Source: Lampris incognitus (taxonomy: Eukaryota > Chordata > Actinopteri > Lampriformes > Lampridae). From it: DNA of 64,000 nt. Below are positions 17,803 through 60,640 of the stretch, piece after piece. The position numbers and the translations under genes are program-made. Under the pieces are notes generated by a model that did no database searches, had not been told where the DNA came from, and saw only the letters and a list, made by a program, of their open reading frames with translations. The first letter of the stretch is position 1. Each line of letters opens with the position of its first letter. The stretch is taken from NCBI RefSeq assembly GCF_029633865.1, contig NC_079214.1, positions 20,046,950-20,110,949 on the forward strand. Reading direction: 5' to 3'.

Positions 17803-18410
17803 TGTTGCGAAATCGGGGGGGGCAGCTCGGCCGGACCGTCACAGCCGGGACGCGAACTCAGATTTCCCGCACCTCGGGCGACAGCGTTAACCAGTCGACT
17901 AAAGGGTCAGATTTACTTATGCATGTACGTTACACTACCCTGTGGAGTTAGAAAACAACGAGACAGGAGACGTGAGAGTAGACGTAGTCGAGGTAGCTCC
18001 AACTTGCATGTCATACGTTCGACAACGACACTGAACTCACTGTGAACCGGAAGCGGAAGTGCATTATCTGACCCCTCGCCTCTTCCCTTAAAGGTACACC
18101 GTCCTCTTAGGTGAATGTCTCTCGATATATAGATGTGGGTCACCACAACCCCCACTTTTTCAGGAAGCGCGTCCTCGCACTTCAGCTCCCTCACGCCTCT
18201 GGGCGCACGCGCTTCCGATGACCTCACGGTCTCACCATCCCACTTCTGACACCAATGTAGCGAAGTCAGGGGGGCAGTCCGGGAACCGCCGCCACAGCCA
18301 GGACGCGAACCCGTATCTCCCGCAACAGGGGCGACAACGTTAGCCAGTCGACTAAAGGGTCCGACCCGTTAACAAAGGGCTAAAGTGTCTAGTTATTCAT
18401 GTACGTTACA
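17803..18410 (-). mobile_element. TRIM-type miniature LTR element, copy A
   Basis: Two direct LTR-like repeats (17803-17934 and 18256-18410) with TG...CA ends surround 321 bp without coding capacity. On the minus strand the internal region begins with the primer-binding site TGGTGTCAGAAGTGGGAT (18 nt complementary to the 3' end of tRNA-Leu). Flanks are ACAC on the left and ATAC on the right. The uninterrupted site in hAT copy B reads AAAATACTGTAAAG, showing this is an insertion with a 4-bp duplication. The LTRs contain tRNA-like A and B boxes (minus strand). Confidence 0.85.
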
Positions 18411-35088: not shown

Positions 35089-38000
35089 ACTACTACTACT
35101 ACTTTCGGCTGCTCCCGTTAGGGGTCGCCACAGCGGATCATCCGTTTCCATTTCTTCCTGTCTTCTGCGTTTTCCTCTGTCACACCAGCCACCTGCATGT
35201 CTTCCCTCACCACATCCACAAACCTCCTCTTTGGCCTTCCTCTTCTCCTCTTCCCTGGCAGCTCCATATTCAGCATCCTTCTCCCAATATACTCAGCATC
35301 TCTCCTCCACACATGTCCAAGCCATCTCAATCTTGCCTCTCTTGCTTTGTCTCCAAACCGTCCAACCTGAGCGGTCCCTCTAATATAATCGTTCCTAATC
35401 CTGTCCTTCTTCGTTACTCCCAGTGAAAATCTTAGCATCTTCAACTCTGCCACCTCCAGGTCCGCCTCCTGTCTTTTCGTCAGTGCCACTGTCTCCAAAC
35501 CATATAACATAGCTGGTCTCACAACCATCTTGTAAACTTTCCCTTTAACTCTTGCTGGTACCCTTCTGTCGCAAATCACTCCTGACACACTTCTCCACCC
35601 ACTCCAACCTGCCTGCACTCTCTTTTTCACCTCTCTACTGCACTCCCCGTTACTTTGGACAGTTGACCCCAAGTATTTAAACTCAAATGCCTTTGTCACC
35701 TCCACTCCTTGCATCCTGACCATTCCACTGTCCTCTCTCTCATTCACGCATAGGTATTCCGTCTTGCTCCTACTGACTTTCATTCCTCTTCTCTCCAGTG
35801 CATACCTCCACCTCTCCAGGCTCTCCTCAACCTGCACCCTACTCTCGCTACAGATCACAATGTCATCCGCGAACATCATCGTCCATGGAGACTCCTGCCT
35901 GATCTTGTCCGTCAACCTGTCCATCACCATTGCAAACAAGAAAGGGCTAAGAGCCGATCCTTGATGTAATCCCACCTCCACCTTGAACCCATCTGTCATT
36001 CCAACCGTACACCTCACCATTGTCACACTTCCCTCATACGTATCCTGCACCATTCCTACATACTTCTCTGCAACTCCTGACTTCCTCATACAATACCACA
36101 CCTCCTCTCTCGGCACTCTGTCATAAGCTTTCTCTAAATCTACAAAGACACAATGCAACTCTTTCTGGCCTTCTCTATACTTCTCAATCAACATTCTCAA
36201 AGCAAACATCGCATCTGTGGTGCTCTTTCGTGGCATGAAACCATACTGCTGCACGCTGATCGTCACCTCTCCTCTTAACCTAGCTTCTATTACTCTTTCC
36301 CAAATCTTCATGCTGTGGCTGATCAACTTTATACCTCTGTAGTTGTTACAGTTCTGCACATCGCCCTTGTTCTTGAAAATCGGTACCAGTATGCTTCTTC
36401 TCCACTCCTCAGGCATCCTCTCACTTTCCAGGATTGTGTTAAACAATCTAGTTAAAAACTCCACTGCCATCTCTCCTAAACATCTCCATGCCTCCACAGG
36501 TATGTCATCAGGACCAACTGCCTTTCCACTCTTCATCCTCTTCATAGCTGCCCTCACGTCCTCCTTGCTAATCCGCTGAACTTCCTGATTCACTATCCCT
36601 ACATCATCCAACCTTCTCTCTCTCTCATTTTCTTCATTCATCAGCCCCTCAAAGTATTCCTTCCACCTTCTTAGCACACTCTCCTCGCTTGTCAGCACAT
36701 TTCCATCTCTATCCTTGATCGCCCTAACTTGCTGCACATCCTTTGCAGCTTGGTCCCTCTGTCTAGCCAATCGGTACAAGTCCTTTTCTCCTTCCTTAGT
36801 GTCTAATCTGTCATACAATTCACCATACGCCTTTTCCTTTGCCTTTGCCACCTCTCTCTTTGCTTTACACTGCATCTCCTTGTACTCCTGTCTACTTTCT
36901 TCATCTCTCTTACTATCCCACTTCTTCTTTGCCAACCCTTTCCTCTGTATAATTTGCTGTACTTCCTCATTCCACCACCAAGTCTACTTGTCTTCCTTCC
37001 TCTGTCCTGATGACACACCAAGTACCTTCCTAGCTGTCTCCCTCACTATTTCTGCAGTGGTTTTCCAGCCATCTGGCAACTCTTCACTACCACCCAGTGC
37101 CTGTCTTAACTCCTGCCTGAACTCCACACAACAGTCTTCCTTCTTCAACTTCCACCATTTGATCTTCGGCTGTGTCTTCACTCGCTTCCTCTTCTTGGTC
37201 TCCAAAGTCATCCTACAGACCACCATCCGATGCTGCCTAGCTACGTTCTCCCCTGTCACCACCTTGCAGTCTCCAATCCCTTTTAGATGGCGCCTTCTAC
37301 ATAAGATATAGTCCACCTGTGTGCACTTTCCTCCACTCTTGTACGTCACCCTGTGTTCCTCCCTCTTCTTGAAATATGTATTCACCACAGACATTTCCAT
37401 CCTTTTCGCAAAATCGACCACCATCTGTCCTTCCACATTTCTCTTCTTGACTCCATACCTTCCCATCACCTCCTCATCACCTCTGTTCCCTTCACCAACA
37501 TGTCCATTGAAGTCCGCTCCAATCACCACTCTCTCCTCCTTGGGTACCCTCTCCACCATGTCGTCCAACTCATTCCAGAATTCTTCTTTTTCATCCTTCT
37601 CACACCCAACTTGCGGGGCATACGCGCTGATAACATTCAGCAATAAACCTTCAATTTCCAGCTTCATAGTCATCACTCTGTCTGACACTCTCTTCACCTC
37701 CAGCACGCTCTTGACATACTCTTCCTTCAGAATTACCCCTACCCCATTACTCCTCCCATTCACACCATGGTAGAAGAGTTTGAACCCACCTCCGATACTC
37801 CTGGCCTTACTCCCCTTCCACCTGGTCTCTTGCACACACAGTATGCCTACCTTTCTTCTTTCCATCATGTCAGCCAGCTCTCTCCCTTTACCAGTCATAG
37901 TGCCAACATTCAAAGTTCCAACTCTCACCTCCACATGCCTACCCTTCCTCCTCTCTAGCTGCCTCTGGACATGCTTTCCCCCTCTCCTTCTCCTTCGCCG

Positions 38001-38224
38001 AACAGTAGCATAGTTTCCACCGACACCCTGCAACAGTACCGGTGGCAGTCGTTGGTAACCCGGGCCTCGACCGATCCGGTATGTAAGTCTTATTTATGAT
38101 TCGCATATTTGATTTGGCAAAGATTTTACGCCGGATGCCCTTCCTGACGCAACCCTCCCCATTTGTCCGGGCTTGGGACTGGCACTAAGGATGCACTGGC
38201 TTGTGCATCCTCAGTGGCTGGGTT
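35089..38224 (-). mobile_element. Full-length RTE-clade LINE inside the Tx1 element
   Basis: It is bounded by a 16-bp duplication CTCCCACCAT(C/T)GAGCT (35073-35088 and 38225-38240, one mismatch). The 3' end carries an AGTAGTAGTAGTAG tail, the short tandem-repeat type of tail typical of RTE elements rather than poly(A). The host Tx1 frame can be read across the insertion point (...LAQWWE then VGKTQIRILCQQYKQ), confirming the boundaries. Confidence 0.92.
35118..38033 (-). pseudogene. RTE LINE ORF (endonuclease-reverse transcriptase), one in-frame stop
   Basis: The frame runs 36984-38033 (349 codons) and 35118-36935 and upstream in the same phase, separated by a single TAG at 36984-36986. The AP endonuclease shows VGTLNVGTMTGKG, CVQETRWKG, IGADFNGHVG and the final VDYILCRRR. 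The reverse transcriptase shows VPIFKNKGDVQNCNNYRGIK, FVDLEKAYDRVPR, LHQGSALSPFLF and the catalytic MFADDIVI. The C-terminus ends in the RTE-type WLGHVWRRDAEYIGRR and GKRRRGRPKRR blocks. One base change accounts for the interruption between QRKEDK and TWWWNEEVQ. Apart from that stop the ORF looks complete. Antisense frames here are shadows. Confidence 0.93.
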
Positions 38225-42372: not shown

Positions 42373-42507
42373 TGTAACCGGTTATTTTCTTGCCCTGTGC
42401 GGGATTCGATACGGGGTGTATTGCACCACAAGGCGACATCACTAACCGCTCGGCTAAAGGATCAGACCCCTTAGCTAGGGACTAATGTGTCTTATTAGTA
42501 GTTTACA
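42373..42507 (-). mobile_element. Solo LTR of the TRIM-type family, copy B
   Basis: A 135-bp sequence with TGTAAC...TTTACA ends is flanked by CTTG on both sides (42369-42372 and 42508-42511), a 4-bp duplication. Its centre shares 'gcgacatcactaaccgctcg' and 'gctaaaggatcagacc' with the LTRs at 17803-18410 and 56458-56881, including the tRNA-like A-box region on the minus strand. Its outer parts are more diverged. Confidence 0.75.
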
Positions 42508-47889: not shown

Positions 47890-50800
47890 TCAAGTACCAA
47901 ACAAGTGCTGAGCAAACTTTTTAAGTTGTAGCTTTGTGGCTGGTTTGGTCATCAAGTCAGCGATCATGCTGTCAGTAGGACAGTATTCCAGAGATATCTT
48001 ACCACTACTAACAGTCTCTCGTATGAAGTGATATTTAATATCAATGTGTTTACATCTTTGGCGATTAACTGGATTTCTTGCTAAAGCAATTGCTCCTTGG
48101 TTGTCATCATAAACCTTAGTTTGTGCATATTTGTATTTATCCATACCCTTGAGTAGCTGATGTAAATACATACACTCCTGAATAGCTGACGCTAAGGCCA
48201 TGTATTCTGCCTCGCAGGTAGATAGTGCAACTGTCGGTTGTTTCCTACTCTTCCAAGAAATGAGAGAGCTTCTCTCACTTAGGCTGACACAATATCCCGT
48301 GGTGCTACGTCTATCAGAGACCTCTGAGGCCCAGTCAGCATCACTGTGGATTATAAGCCCTAGCTGACTTTTGTAATCCCTTTTAAAACATAAACCACGG
48401 TGACTTGTACCCTTGAGATACCTGAACACGTGCTTTACTGTGTTCCAGTGCTCCTCAGTTGGATCAGAGAAATGTTGGGAAAGTTTGCTGACCACAAAAC
48501 TTAAATCTGGCCTAGTGCAAGTAGCCAAATAAATCAAACTCCCAACTGCCTCTCGATACAACCTTGGATCTTCCATTTTTTCTGCATCCTCTGTGTATTC
48601 TAGTTTTGCCTCGCATGGGGTCTCTCTAGACTTACAGTCTTGCATCCCAAACCTGGAGAGGATTTTATTCACATACCTCTCTTGTGACATAGTGACTTGG
48701 CTCCCTGACTGGTGAAAATCAATCCCTAGAAAATGATTGAGTTTCCCCAGGTCTTTCATTTTGAACCTAGCGGTGAGCATCATTTTTACAGTTTTCACAA
48801 CATCCTCATTGTTAGCGGCAATGATTAGATCATCAACCCATACAACAATGATTACTTTTTCATTTTCCTTTTCCCTTGTGTATTGACAGTTATCAGCAGG
48901 ATTTTGTTTGAAACCATTTTCTGTGAGGTATGCATGTAACAGAGCATACCAGTTCCTGCCGGACTGTTTAAGTCCATAAAGGGACTTCTGTAGTTTGCAT
49001 ACTAGTCGTTCTCCGGTTTTTGATACCTCCTCATAACCTTCTGGTTGTTCTAGGTATATCTCTTTATCTATTTTTGCATGCAGGTATGCAGTTTTTACAT
49101 CCATCTGATGTAAAACTAAATCGTCCTGCACTGCTTTCTGCATGACAACTCTAACAGTAGTCATGTCAGCTGTCGGCGAGAAGGTTTCTTCGTAGTCAAT
49201 ACCTTCCTTTTGGCTGTAGCCCTTAGCTACATATCTAGCCTTACATTTTTCTGACCCATTAGCGTCACTCTTTAGGGAATACACCCACCTGCCCCCCACT
49301 GTCTTTTTGCCTGGTGGCAACTGGGTGATTTTAAAAGTCTCATTCTCTTTCAGTGACTGCATTTCGTCATCCATAGCATTTTTCCACTGTTTTGACTTTG
49401 TTGACCTGATAGCTTCCTGAAAAGTTTGTGGTATGTCACAAACAGCTCTGTAACAAGCATCTACACAAATTACCAGTGTGTCTGTTGTATCAGTGTCGTA
49501 TTCCTGTAAATGCGCTGGCATTCTCCTATTTCTAGGTGGGTTCCTTCTAACTCCCCCACTGCTTGGCTGTTCACTCTCGACCTCAGAAACATCACCACCA
49601 ACACTTTGACCTGATGCATTTTCATCATCATTTATCTCATTGTCATAGACCATGGGTTCTACCTCCCTGTCCTGACATTCACTGTGTGGTCCCTGTGTCT
49701 GTGTTTCTTTCTCTTTAGGGGTCCTATTGTTGAACTTCACCAACCTGTGTCGTGATACCTTCTGTGTGTCAGGAAAATATACAAGATAAGCAGGACTATT
49801 CTTATCGTAGCCCACAAAAACACCCTCTTTACATCTGGAGTCCATCTTCCCTTTCTCTTGTGTGTATGTAAAACACACAGACCCGAATTTCTGAAGTCTG
49901 GACATGTCTGGTTTCTTGCCTGTAAGCATCTCATATGGTGTTTGCTGGGTGCGTTTACTATAGCACCTATTTCTTACGTGTGCTGCGGTCTGCACAGCAT
50001 GACTCCACAGTGTATCTGGTAACTTGCTGTCTAGCAGCATACACCTACCCATCTCAAAGAGGGTTCGCCAACCTCTCTCCGCTGTACCGTTCTGGTGAGG
50101 TGAATAGGGTGCGGATGTTTCATGTTTTATGCCATTTTTGGTTAGCAGCGCTCTGAACTCTTTACTGGTGAATTCGCTCTCATTATCTGAGCGAATTATT
50201 TTGACCTTTCCAAAGGGGGCGGAGTCTGCTAAGTACCTCTCTGTGGCCTGTAAAGCATCACTTTTGGATTTGAGAAAATATACGGTCATCGCACCCGAAT
50301 AATCGTCTGTAAAAGACTGTGCATACTTGTGACCTTCTAGACTTGGGGTTCTCATGGGACCAGCAAGATCCGTATGGACTAGCTGAAGAGGCTCTGTAGC
50401 CTTTTTATCTGCCTCTCTATTCCGTGTTTGTGTGAACTTTCCTTTAGTACATATCTCACACATCTGTGCTGGTCTAACAGCACTACCTCGTATTTCCATA
50501 CCTCTTACCACACCCATTAGTTTGCTTACATCCTCGTAGTTGCAATGCCCTAAAATCTCATGCCATGTTTGCATGTCATGGCACACACTGCAAGTATCAA
50601 CATTTTTCACAACAGTGGGTAGGTAGAACAAATTACCACTTTCATGGAAATCAAACCTGGTACCCTTCTTGGTGAGCATGTGACTGTCCCCTCTCTTAAA
50701 AGTCACTGTCGCCCCTGCATTGGTTGCTCTTGCCACTGAAAAGATGTCGTGCGGGTACGTCGGCATATACAATGCGTCCTGTAGCTGTGCGGTTTGTTCT

Positions 50801-51936
50801 CGTCCATCGCTGTCTAGTAGAGAGATCAGCGCCGTCCCTCTGCGTTGCGCTGTCCCCGTGCACTTAGTTCCATCTGCCAGCTCGATTGAATGGGCGTCGG
50901 GCTGGAAAGTGTTATCGAAGCTCTCGAACATGGCAATATCAGTCACAATGTGAGATGTCGCCCCAGCGTCCACCATGATCCCTTTCTTTTTCACATTGGC
51001 TGGTGGCCTGTCGTTGCTCGTCGTCATGAAGAGGAAGTCCCTGTCGTTCCTGCTCTCCTCCTCTTCGTCCTCTGCAACCTTTCGGGCTCCGTCTCCTTTT
51101 CCCTTCTTCCTGCACACTGAGTCAGCGTGCGAGTTGCTCCTGCAGTGACTGAACCACACTTTCTGGGTGCACTTGGTCCTGACATGTCCTTTAACACCAC
51201 ATCGGTAACACGTCAGAGTGGCTTCCCCATCTTTTCTTTGTGTCTTGGTGCCTTGTTTGCTTTGCTTAGTGTTAGTCTTCATCACAGTGTCCGCAGATCC
51301 AGACGTCCTCATCTTTTCGGACTCTTCATACACCCTCAATCTTCTCTTAAAGTCTTGGAATGTGACATTGTCCTCATTTTGTGTTACATGGACAGCCAGT
51401 GGTCTGAATGAGTCAGGCAGTCCATTCAAGATGGTGGCTACAAGTAGCCCATCACTTATATTCTCTCCTGCATCGCGGAGAGCTGTTATAATATTCTCTG
51501 CCCTTATTATGTAATCTGTAACAGTCTCAGTTCCTTCCATACTTATAGTGGTCAAGGATGTGTACAGATTCAGAATCCTTGGCTTGCTTTTACCTGTATA
51601 GTGCTCTCTTAATATTTTTAGAGCTTTGCGGCCATCTTCAGCAGCATCGTGTCTTATTAATGACAGACTCTTATCATCAAGTGAATTTACTAATTGTGCA
51701 TAACAGTCTGCATTTCTTGCTACATCTGTAGCTATAGCGTTAGCATCGGCACCGTCGGCTGGTGCTTGTAAAATAGTGTCTTTTAATTTCATTATGTGTA
51801 ACCGGCTAAGAAATCTTGTCTCCCACAGATCGTACTTATCCTCTGCTCCGTCGAACACGGGCCTCATTAACTGCTGCTGTAACAAGGAGACCCTTCCTGC
51901 TGCAGCCGCCATTATCACTTTCTTTTCCAAGTTCAA
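47890..51936 (-). CDS. Copia Gag-Pol polyprotein (1348 aa)
   Basis: One open frame carries the Copia order Gag, protease, integrase, reverse transcriptase, RNase H. Gag is about residues 1-300, with a CCHC zinc knuckle at 243-256 (CYRCGVKGHVRTKC). A second knuckle at 262-275 has Phe in place of the first Cys. The protease site DAGATSH is at 323-329. The integrase shows its HHCC finger (HEILGHCNYED...CEIC) and D,D,E core (HTDLAGP, RSDNESEF, NGTAERGWR). The reverse transcriptase has MDVKTAYLHA and the catalytic VVWVDDLIIA. RNase H has SDADWASEVSDRRSTTGY, CEAEYMALA and KHIDIKYHFIRE. No stop or frameshift is visible. Integrase before reverse transcriptase separates Copia from Gypsy. Confidence 0.95.
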   Translation of the reverse strand: MNLEKKVIMAAAAGRVSLLQQQLMRPVFDGAEDKYDLWETRFLSRLHIMKLKDTILQAPADGADANAIATDVARNADCYAQLVNSLDDKSLSLIRHDAAEDGRKALKILREHYTGKSKPRILNLYTSLTTISMEGTETVTDYIIRAENIITALRDAGENISDGLLVATILNGLPDSFRPLAVHVTQNEDNVTFQDFKRRLRVYEESEKMRTSGSADTVMKTNTKQSKQGTKTQRKDGEATLTCYRCGVKGHVRTKCTQKVWFSHCRSNSHADSVCRKKGKGDGARKVAEDEEEESRNDRDFLFMTTSNDRPPANVKKKGIMVDAGATSHIVTDIAMFESFDNTFQPDAHSIELADGTKCTGTAQRRGTALISLLDSDGREQTAQLQDALYMPTYPHDIFSVARATNAGATVTFKRGDSHMLTKKGTRFDFHESGNLFYLPTVVKNVDTCSVCHDMQTWHEILGHCNYEDVSKLMGVVRGMEIRGSAVRPAQMCEICTKGKFTQTRNREADKKATEPLQLVHTDLAGPMRTPSLEGHKYAQSFTDDYSGAMTVYFLKSKSDALQATERYLADSAPFGKVKIIRSDNESEFTSKEFRALLTKNGIKHETSAPYSPHQNGTAERGWRTLFEMGRCMLLDSKLPDTLWSHAVQTAAHVRNRCYSKRTQQTPYEMLTGKKPDMSRLQKFGSVCFTYTQEKGKMDSRCKEGVFVGYDKNSPAYLVYFPDTQKVSRHRLVKFNNRTPKEKETQTQGPHSECQDREVEPMVYDNEINDDENASGQSVGGDVSEVESEQPSSGGVRRNPPRNRRMPAHLQEYDTDTTDTLVICVDACYRAVCDIPQTFQEAIRSTKSKQWKNAMDDEMQSLKENETFKITQLPPGKKTVGGRWVYSLKSDANGSEKCKARYVAKGYSQKEGIDYEETFSPTADMTTVRVVMQKAVQDDLVLHQMDVKTAYLHAKIDKEIYLEQPEGYEEVSKTGERLVCKLQKSLYGLKQSGRNWYALLHAYLTENGFKQNPADNCQYTREKENEKVIIVVWVDDLIIAANNEDVVKTVKMMLTARFKMKDLGKLNHFLGIDFHQSGSQVTMSQERYVNKILSRFGMQDCKSRETPCEAKLEYTEDAEKMEDPRLYREAVGSLIYLATCTRPDLSFVVSKLSQHFSDPTEEHWNTVKHVFRYLKGTSHRGLCFKRDYKSQLGLIIHSDADWASEVSDRRSTTGYCVSLSERSSLISWKSRKQPTVALSTCEAEYMALASAIQECMYLHQLLKGMDKYKYAQTKVYDDNQGAIALARNPVNRQRCKHIDIKYHFIRETVSSGKISLEYCPTDSMIADLMTKPATKLQLKKFAQHLFGT

Positions 51937-52128
51937 TCTCCAAACGTTGAACTGCGGCTTGTAGAAACTCTCGTTGCGCGCTTTTCACTGCATTTTCAGC
52001 GGGAGTCTCTCGGCGCCGTCTTCAGAAGCCCTTTTAGCCTAGCTAGTAGCTTCACTTGGCTAACAGACAAAAGTTCGTTTTTCTGTTACCTTTCCTTGCT
52101 CTAAACTGGCATGACTGGGCCCATAACC

Positions 52129-55591: not shown

Positions 55592-56903
55592 TGATCGATG
55601 GGCTGACTTAACCCGCCTTCGGAGGGCCTCTACCGGCCGGCTTTGCCGGCGTTCGGGTGGCCGGTTCCTTCGGTCTTGCGGAGTTCACCCAAGGGCGGCA
55701 ACAACGACACGACTCTGGGCACCGTCGGCTGCGCGGTGGGGTCCTCCAACTCCGGTGCTACTCTGGGAACCATGAAACAAAGCGCGGGGTGGGGCGGCTC
55801 GCCCTGACGTCCCCTCCGTGCGCCTCCGGGTACCCGACTCTCGCCCCCATCATCCGGGGAGACGGCGGGGTGTTTAATGCCTCCACGCGCTGTGGGAGCA
55901 TGTCATTGATAGAGGAAACATTCAGTTTATACACGTGTAAATGACCCATGGACAGTCAACACATGAAGCACACTTTTACTTGTATTGCGGTACAAAAAAG
56001 TAGTGTACTTGAAGCTCATTTTATTAAGTAAACGTCAAGTATACTAGTATCAATGTACTATTTAACTTTTGCCATCAATCGGGAAGGAGAAGGTAACCTC
56101 TACCACCCGCGGCTAGGGTGTCGCAAGCCTCAGCGCTTTCCTCCCCCGCAAGGGAAGACCGTGTCGGTTTCAGCGTAGCTCTCCCTCTATGCTCCGTTCT
56201 CCCACACACGCCCGCCTTCGCCGGCTCCCGCCTTCGCCTGACTGTCTTTCGCCGCTGACCGCGTTACGCGTGCGGGTCGGGGTTTCCGTGAGCGCTGAGA
56301 GAGCTGCTGTCGGTGTCTCCAAGGCGCGCAGAAGAGCAAAGGCAGCTGCCATTGAGCTGTGCACCAGCCACGCTCGCACGCACACACGCAGGCACGCTAT
56401 CCATGATTGGACTACGATCTCAGATCAGACGAGACAACCCGCTGAATTTAAGCATATTGTAGCGAATTCAGGGGACAACGCAACCACAGGAACTGCCGCG
56501 GCCGGGAAGCGAACCCGTATCGCCCGCACCGCAGGAGACATCGCTAACCGCTCGACTAAAGGGTCAGACCCGCGGGCCAGCGTGTCCACTTATCCATGCA
56601 CGTTACACTACCCCCCTCCTTCGGGAAGCGTGTCCCCGCGCTTTAGCATATCAGCTCCTTCACACCTCAGGGCGCCTACGCTTCCGATGGCCTTACGGTC
56701 GCTCCATCCCACTTCTGACACCAATGTAGCGAATTCGGGGGACAACGCAACCACAGGAACTGCCGCGGCCGGGAAGCGAACCTGTATCGCCCGTACCGCA
56801 GGAGACATCGCTAACCGCTCGACTAAAGGGTCAGACCCGCGAGCCAGCGGCCAGCGTGTCTACTTATCCATGCACGTTACAATATTACCAAGCGGAGGTC
56901 CAT
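55592..56903 (+). pseudogene. rDNA fragment: ITS-like sequence and 28S rRNA 5' end
   Basis: The 28S start is clear: 'ctcagatcagacgagacaac' then 'ccgctgaatttaagcatat' up to 56457, continuing after the TRIM-type insertion with ATATTACCAAGCGGAGG (56882-56898). The GC-rich parts 55592-55905 and about 56080-56416 are probably ITS sequence by composition and position. An AT-rich stretch (55906-56080) stands where 5.8S would be expected, and no 5.8S was recognised. Not a functional rRNA gene. Confidence 0.7.
56458..56881 (-). mobile_element. TRIM-type miniature LTR element, copy C, inside 28S fragment
   Basis: LTRs at 56458-56607 and 56725-56881 (150 and 157 bp, the second with an 8-bp internal duplication) flank only 117 bp. 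On the minus strand the interior begins with TGGTGTCAGAAGTGGGAT, a perfect 18-nt complement of the tRNA-Leu 3' end one base after the LTR, and ends with the polypurine tract GGAGGGGGGTAG. The 4-bp duplication ATAT (56454-56457 and 56882-56885) splits the 28S sequence. The LTRs carry minus-strand pol III A-box (TAGTCGAGCGG, 56548-56558) and B-box (GGTTCGCTTCC, 56505-56515) sequences. Confidence 0.9.
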
Positions 56904-57121
56904 GAATACTGGGTTGGCATCCAGCGTTTTTCCTGTGCCCCCGTCCATAGGGTTAGTGGTTGTATCAGGAAGGGCATCCGGCGTAAAATTTTGCCAGATC
57001 ATTATGCGGACTGACAAGACCGCCATCGGGGTTGTGCCCTCACAGGGTACCGATGGAAACTGTCGATTCCGCTGTGGCGACCCCTGGGAAACAGGGAACA
57101 AGCCGAAAGGAGAAGAAGAAG
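56904..57121 (+). repeat. RTE-derived SINE-like tail
   Basis: It contains 'aggaagggcatccggcgtaaaa', also present near the 5' end of the RTE LINE at 35089-38224, and 'ccgctgtggcgacccc' with 'agccgaaag', as at the LINE's 3' end, followed by an AGAAGAAGAA tail. It therefore joins both ends of the LINE and lacks its coding region. Confidence 0.75.
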
Positions 57122-60299: not shown

Positions 60300-60640
60300 C
60301 TTTATTTTGTCATATTCTTACAATAATTATATTCTTACAATGAATTTGTTCTCTGTGTTTAACCCATCCTATTGTATAGGAGCAGTGGGCAGCTGCAGCG
60401 CCCGGGGACCAACTCCAGTTCTTCTTTCAATTTTGGTCAGGGGCACAGCCAGGAGTATTAACCCTAACATGCATGTCTTTTTGATGGTGGGAGAAAACCG
60501 GAGCACCCGGAGGAAACCCACGCAGACATGGGCAGAACATGCAAACTTCACATAGAAAGGACCTTGGACGGCCTGGGGTTCGAACCCAGGACCTTCTTTC
60601 TGTGAGGCAACAGTGCTAACCACTGGGCCACCATGCTGCT
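60300..60640 (+). repeat. Dispersed fish SINE-like repeat, copy 2
   Basis: It matches 43905-44210 in order and orientation: 'gtataggagcagtgggcagc', 'cccacgcagacatgggcaga', 'gctaaccactgggccac'. The contained tRNA-like end (GGGTTCGAACCC) is a partial B box. Confidence 0.75.

Follow-up and report, generated by a model that had tools for sequence, protein, structure and literature searches.

A Helenus-type TRIM of Lampris incognitus with tRNA-like A and B boxes in its LTRs, and its likely Ty3/Gypsy helper family

Copies in the window and in the genome

Three copies of a short LTR retrotransposon lie in the window (the whole 64,000-nucleotide stretch of Lampris incognitus DNA analysed here): two complete copies, A and C, and a solo LTR, B. 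They are found where the first-pass annotation had placed them, and the sense strand of all three is the minus strand. Copy C (56458..56881, minus strand) is 424 bp long and is flanked by the target duplication (TSD) ATAT at 56454-56457 and 56882-56885. Its 5′ LTR (157 bp, 56725..56881) and 3′ LTR (150 bp, 56458..56607) differ by four substitutions in 150 aligned positions and a 7-bp gap, and enclose an interior of 117 bp. The primer binding site (PBS), TGGTGTCAGAAGTGGGAT at 56706..56723, fits the 3′ end of tRNA-Leu. The clear polypurine tract (PPT) reported for this copy is GAAGGAGGGGGGTAG at 56608..56622, which abuts the 3′ LTR and adjoins TGTAAC.

Copy A (17803..18410, minus strand) is also complete but holds a nested solo LTR. 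Its own LTRs (155 bp at 18256-18410 and 132 bp at 17803-17934) are more diverged, with 29 substitutions in 132 aligned positions, while its PBS (18237..18254, minus strand) consists of the same 18 bases as that of copy C, in agreement with the tRNA-Leu primer site described previously for the two complete copies. The nested LTR (207 bp, 17941..18147, no strand assigned) belongs to another Gypsy family, has its own duplication (ACCC/ACCC) and interrupts the PPT. Interiors of 117 to 321 bp had been reported; the lower value stands for copy C, but the 321 bp of copy A are made up of an interior of about 110 bp and the 207-bp foreign LTR, without which the copy measures about 400 bp. Solo LTR B (135 bp, 42373..42507, minus strand) represents a sister subfamily and is flanked by CTTG/CTTG. 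All LTRs have the form TG...CA, and their lengths confirm the range of 132–157 bp given earlier. The 4-bp duplications are exact in C and B, but in A only three of the four bases agree (ACAC/ATAC). Judged by their short length, the copies are without coding capacity.

Relatives of the nested 207-bp LTR occur at two loci (L069 and L070), each with two such LTRs about 4.25 kb apart. Both contain reverse transcriptase (RT), and the scanned pieces of L069 also match RNase H and an integrase zinc-binding domain. This Gypsy family was rejected as a helper of the short element because its PBS (TTGGTGACCCCGACG) belongs to another tRNA. Three long open frames of the window, all on the minus strand, contain other element types in their scanned pieces: 24286-28335 matches a Gypsy-type pol (RT, integrase), 47890-51984 a Copia-type element, and 35118-38093 the RT and endonuclease of a LINE. 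Copy C itself interrupts a stretch at 56381-56457 and 56886-56910 (CCGCTGAATTTAAGCATAT / AAGCGGAGG) that presumably resembles the 5′ end of 28S rRNA; an Rfam scan at the gathering cut-off gave no match for it.

The family is abundant in the 1.48-Gb genome. Copy C has at least 41 further near-full-length matches at 93–96% identity (40 of 3042 candidates scored), and among the matches listed two pairs overlap, as tandems sharing an LTR. Tandem units with shared LTRs were also seen at L004 (1501-1990) and L085 (1509-2065). The exact PBS 18-mer occurs 5346 times genome-wide, and its reversed control not at all. Of the first 30 sites listed, 28 adjoin an LTR or interior of this type; 25 of these continue into the interior, and three (L043, L052 and L055) into sequence without assigned identity. 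For solo LTR B, at least 40 relatives are present at 94–97%; two complete ones, L071 and L072, have about 100 bp of interior and a PBS, TGGTGGCAGCGGTGGKAT, that differs from the primer site of A and C and which we take to fit another tRNA-Leu isoacceptor. The duplication at L071 is CTAT/CTAT. PBS and PPT are conserved over the copies, which speaks against tandem SINEs, and that reading was rejected on these grounds together with the LTR-type TSDs. Elements of this kind are already catalogued, as Helenus (Kojima 2024, PMC10886601), and copy C, copy A without its nested LTR and L071 (372 bp) fall within the Helenus TRIM size range (311–1263 bp).

Promoter-like boxes in the LTRs

An A-box-like and a B-box-like stretch had been described on the sense strand of each LTR, and both were confirmed, at a tRNA spacing that dinucleotide shuffles rarely match. 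Scoring used the 22 positions of the A-box/B-box consensus TRGYNNARNNG/GGTTCGANTCC. In the 5′ LTR of copy C the A box (TAGTCGAGCGG) is at 56815..56825 and the B box (GGTTCGCTTCC) at 56772..56782, with second copies at 56548-56558 and 56505-56515; in solo LTR B the corresponding positions are 42446..42456 (TAGCCGAGCGG) and 42402-42412 (GTATCGAATCC), all on the minus strand. From start to start, the boxes are 43–44 bp apart in the LTRs of the window (43 in copy C). Measured against this consensus, both LTRs of C have one mismatch in 22, B and the 5′ LTR of A two, and the 3′ LTR of A three. Shuffled sequences scored as well 0 and 0 times per 1000 for the C LTRs, twice for the 5′ LTR of A, 13 times for its 3′ LTR and once for B. 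On the antisense strand the best scores were 5–7 mismatches.

Over the whole window and both strands, eight box pairs have no more than one A-box mismatch and two in total. Four are the Helenus-type LTRs (the 3′ LTR of A misses this cut) and four lie at three other places, at 60630, 44193 and 13204 on the minus strand. Two of these places have the A box TGGCCCAGTGG and the third TAGTGTGGCGG; to us they look like tRNA-derived SINEs.

The survey was extended to 54 end-to-end LTRs from fetched loci, after 52 partial sequences among 106 matches had been dropped. The best box pair is 43–44 bp apart in 19/20 LTRs resembling the 5′ LTR of C, 7/7 resembling its 3′ LTR, 9/9 B-like LTRs and at least 10/17 resembling the 5′ LTR of A. 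The D- and T-arm pairing claimed for the LTRs held in part. Of the five possible T-arm pairs, C- and A-like LTRs form 3.8–4.0, against at most 3.2 for slid partners, and B-like LTRs form 2. In the register best suited to C, D arms form 3.6 of 4 pairs in C-like LTRs, 2.3 in A-like and 3.0 in B-like, with other registers reaching 2.3–3.0. Acceptor pairing amounts to 2.7–3.9 of 7. No tRNA covariance-model match was found in Rfam even at E ≤ 10, ARAGORN (bacterial code) returned no tRNA genes, and Rfam scans for 5S rRNA, at the gathering cut-off and up to E 10, were likewise without a match. The promoter boxes are thus kept across the LTRs, and the tRNA-like fold suggested earlier is not supported, since Rfam gives no match and arm pairing is only partial.

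The boxes are consistent with transcription of the LTR by pol III. A run of four T occurs once in the 54 LTRs and a run of four A eight times; counting against pol III, this near absence of T4 terminators would give an RNA without a defined 3′ end. The T-run depletion is not claimed as a sign of pol III because the 54 copies are related. Alternatively, pol II could transcribe from U3, and the tRNA-like stretch could be what remains of a SINE, or could serve packaging or reverse transcription as an RNA structure. The missing cloverleaf and Rfam match would fit this, as would the degenerate B box of subfamily B (GTATCGAATCC). However, the A box is free of mismatches in the B and C copies of the window and has a single one in A, boxes and spacing are better kept than the arms (2 of 5 T-arm pairs in B), and the one LTR scored from family G, described below, lacks such a box pair (5 mismatches); a relic or structural role is therefore rather unlikely. 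A stem in the interior (GGAAGCG...CGCTTCC) was considered as a packaging signal, with 86.1% of cells paired versus 26.9–55.6% for slid partners. It is not claimed, because its covariation score (0.140) is no higher than that of shuffles (0.145), RNAalifold prefers other pairs in the interiors, and the folding z-scores are −0.57 to −1.49 for four single interiors and +0.71 for the LTR stretch.

Family G and its hybrids with the TRIM

A Ty3/Gypsy element, here family G, adjoins one copy of the TRIM (L004). Its junction, CA followed by TTGGTGTCAGAAGTGGGATGG, has the same start as that of Helenus: the two families agree in the primer site, in the spacer base that precedes it and in two bases that follow. 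G pieces at this locus exceed the Pfam cut-offs for RT, RNase H and integrase; their matches to protease, zinc knuckle and Ty3 capsid fall short of the respective cut-offs. The G LTR is about 376 bp (TGTGGCGAATTC...CCACGTCACA), the interior is 5 kb, and the G PPT (AAGGAAGGGGGCAG) is similar to the Helenus one. Searches for exact matches found 66 places with the G PPT–U3 junction and 51 with the U5–PBS junction; on the same strand these form 15 pairs at 4.9–5.9 kb and one at 1.06 kb. A search for an autonomous partner with matching LTR ends and PBS had been suggested, and in G the PBS context is identical, but the LTR ends do not match straight. Family G is nevertheless the likely autonomous partner of the present Helenus family, going by these junctions and the hybrids described below. 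Another LTR family with the same PBS (L039/L040) was rejected as a helper: the bases that follow its PBS differ, and none of its five exact junctions is a hybrid, which as a control is too small a sample to exclude recombination at the PBS.

The ends match crosswise. When the 16 inner bases of each end of a C-type LTR were compared with those of G, 20 of 32 agreed crosswise versus 10 of 32 straight, and ends of shuffled letters reached 20 once in 20000; this figure is optimistic, because the test came after the pattern had been noticed and used one LTR of each family. Accordingly, the Helenus LTR may stand in reverse orientation to that of its helper. At one locus (L098) an inverted G U5 end forms the 5′ terminus of an insertion with an exact duplication (ATAG), and at another (L090) the Helenus PPT is followed by an inverted Helenus LTR. 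As a tentative proposal, somewhat less probable than its opposite, the Helenus LTR would be a helper-type Gypsy LTR inverted relative to the interior, with the helper U3 end (TGTGGCGAATTC) serving as U5 and the helper U5 (TGTGACGTGG...ATAA) as U3. Through the inversion, the tRNA-like promoter would have come to point in the sense direction; the integrase would take both ends in either role, and L098 and L090 would be present-day examples. The crosswise match could also mean that G is just a relative, the real helper being another Gypsy element with unswapped, Helenus-like LTR ends. Against this, no such element was seen among the 28 PBS loci (25 with Helenus interior, three without assigned identity), and the hybrids name G, making a different helper distinctly unlikely.

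Reading onward from the G U5–PBS junction revealed the hybrids. Sequence was read at 42 of the 51 sites; the nine left comprise two on small contigs and seven with a G PPT–U3 junction about 5 kb away, which were chosen out on purpose and expected to be plain G elements. At 15 of the 42 sites the G LTR end runs into Helenus interior, and at 23 into G leader. The other four are different mixes: in two, a Helenus LTR whose end is hybrid is joined to Helenus interior, one combines a Helenus-like end with G leader, and one combines an upstream part without assigned identity with Helenus interior. The share of 15/42 is probably too high, since likely plain G sites were left out, and becomes 15/51 if none of the nine is a hybrid. 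One of the seven (L130, outside the 42) does show a hybrid order of G LTR, Helenus interior, Helenus LTR and G leader. The reciprocal junction, Helenus U5 and PBS followed by G leader, occurs exactly at four places.

Seven of the 15 hybrids have two readable ends. Their duplications are exact in five (L083, ATAT/ATAT; L085, GTAT/GTAT; L102, ATAC/ATAC; L106, ATAT/ATAT; L098, ATAG/ATAG) and agree at three of four bases in two (L110, ATAT/CTAT; L095, ATAC/GTAC), compared with a permuted mean of 1.43 exact pairs (P = 0.005). The remaining eight lack two readable ends or were partly read; L086 was not counted among the seven on account of the AT repeat that flanks it. L095 begins with a Helenus LTR and L085 contains two Helenus units. 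L085 and L098 sit 3 bp apart in copies of one repeat, which makes their independence uncertain. The exact duplications indicate that these hybrids integrated as one cDNA. The order G LTR, Helenus interior, Helenus LTR is expected if plus-strand strong-stop DNA of G transfers, at the identical PBS, to minus-strand DNA of Helenus. In L086/L080 a G LTR is followed by Helenus interior, Helenus LTR positions 1-120, a G pol tail and a second G LTR, as minus-strand template switching would give.

The hybrids fit copackaging and strand transfer within one particle. They would have no bearing on copackaging if they arose when integrated G and Helenus copies recombined in the chromosomes, or underwent gene conversion, at the PBS. 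Such a process could draw on the identical PBS region and the many places occupied by both families; three hybrids (L099, L108, L109) also lack an intact 5′ end within the sequence read. However, the two flanks of a product of crossover between loci would be unrelated, whereas the duplications are exact in five of seven cases, above permutation, and L086/L080 has a Helenus segment between two G LTRs, the arrangement expected from template switching. Recombination between integrated copies is therefore a very unlikely source.

Several rearranged loci were also observed. Helenus-like LTRs at L097, L103 and L123 end in GARTACGTCACA, a mix of the Helenus and helper U5 ends. L092 has a G pol tail and PPT, followed by the initial 85 or so bases of an LTR resembling that of the helper; next comes an inverted Helenus LTR, which ends in ACGTTACA. 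A matching duplication around the inverted part was not seen. L127 and L128 carry head-to-head Helenus LTRs (inverted C-type, then A-type) between a reversed PBS and G leader; the two LTRs meet within or close to the A box. Using these junctions to locate the 5′ end of the RNA was rejected, as the arms come from different subfamilies and the L128 junction lies in the TCGA palindrome of the A box.

The sequence shows the LTRs, PBS, PPT, TSDs, A and B boxes, common helper junction and hybrids with duplications. Quite probably, this is a Helenus-type TRIM with a tRNA-derived internal promoter, whose predicted pol III transcript would be packaged, reverse-transcribed and integrated by family G. 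Transcription by pol III would begin in the 5′ LTR, immediately upstream of its A box, and the transcript would continue through the interior and 3′ LTR. As the footprints suggest, the RNA would be packaged in G Gag particles, tRNA-Leu would prime its copying by the G reverse transcriptase, and the G integrase would insert the cDNA with 4-bp duplications.

Relation to known elements

What is new here is the likely helper family and the G/Helenus hybrids; the element is otherwise ordinary for its class. In the portions of PMC10886601 drawn on here, helpers of pol III-type TRIMs are identified only by a common PBS or, in fungi, a common interior. Hybrids with TSDs are a direct genomic trace of the particle that carried the RNA, and reading what follows the helper U5–PBS junction is a method usable on other genomes. 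If Gypsy Gag does package pol III transcripts, two transcription systems meet in one life cycle. Among the titles and abstract openings surveyed, TRIMs whose LTR contains tRNA sequence are the subject of PMC10886601 alone, no paper identifies a helper by way of hybrids, and the present partner and its hybrids were not found.

As described in those portions of PMC10886601, Helenus elements are TRIMs with a PBS, a PPT and tRNA-derived sequence in the LTR, including A and B boxes; their hosts are fungi, animals and one plant. Animal members have 4-bp TSDs, vertebrate ones use tRNA-His, -Leu or -Lys as primer, and zebrafish LTR-11_DR reaches thousands of copies with tandem arrays. The describer calls the use of pol III not validated, and for animal Helenus proposes Gypsy helpers from PBS similarity. 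Membership of the present family in this kind is supported by its anatomy and boxes, the named families having been compared by description: it is like Helenus and LTR-11_DR in TRIM length, A and B boxes in the LTR, PBS, PPT, 4-bp TSD and tRNA-Leu among the primers. It differs in that one helper family is here named from hybrids rather than from PBS similarity.

Plant Cassandra TRIMs carry 5S rRNA sequence in their LTRs. They are likewise short, with sequence derived from a pol III gene in the LTR and with tandem arrays, as far as the accounts drawn on go; Cassandra and Ajax differ from the present element in the 5S sequence itself, which has no match here. In the part of a 2020 paper drawn on, the autonomous partners of Cassandra are called unknown (PMC7215508). 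For the hybrids, the closest parallel is found in the Triticeae, where copackaging with strand switching has been invoked to account for complex LTR elements with TSDs (Sabot and Schulman 2007, PMC1950507). From the portions of that account drawn on, the Triticeae insertions involve mostly closely related elements, whereas those of L. incognitus combine a TRIM with its presumed helper, the two differing in their LTRs.
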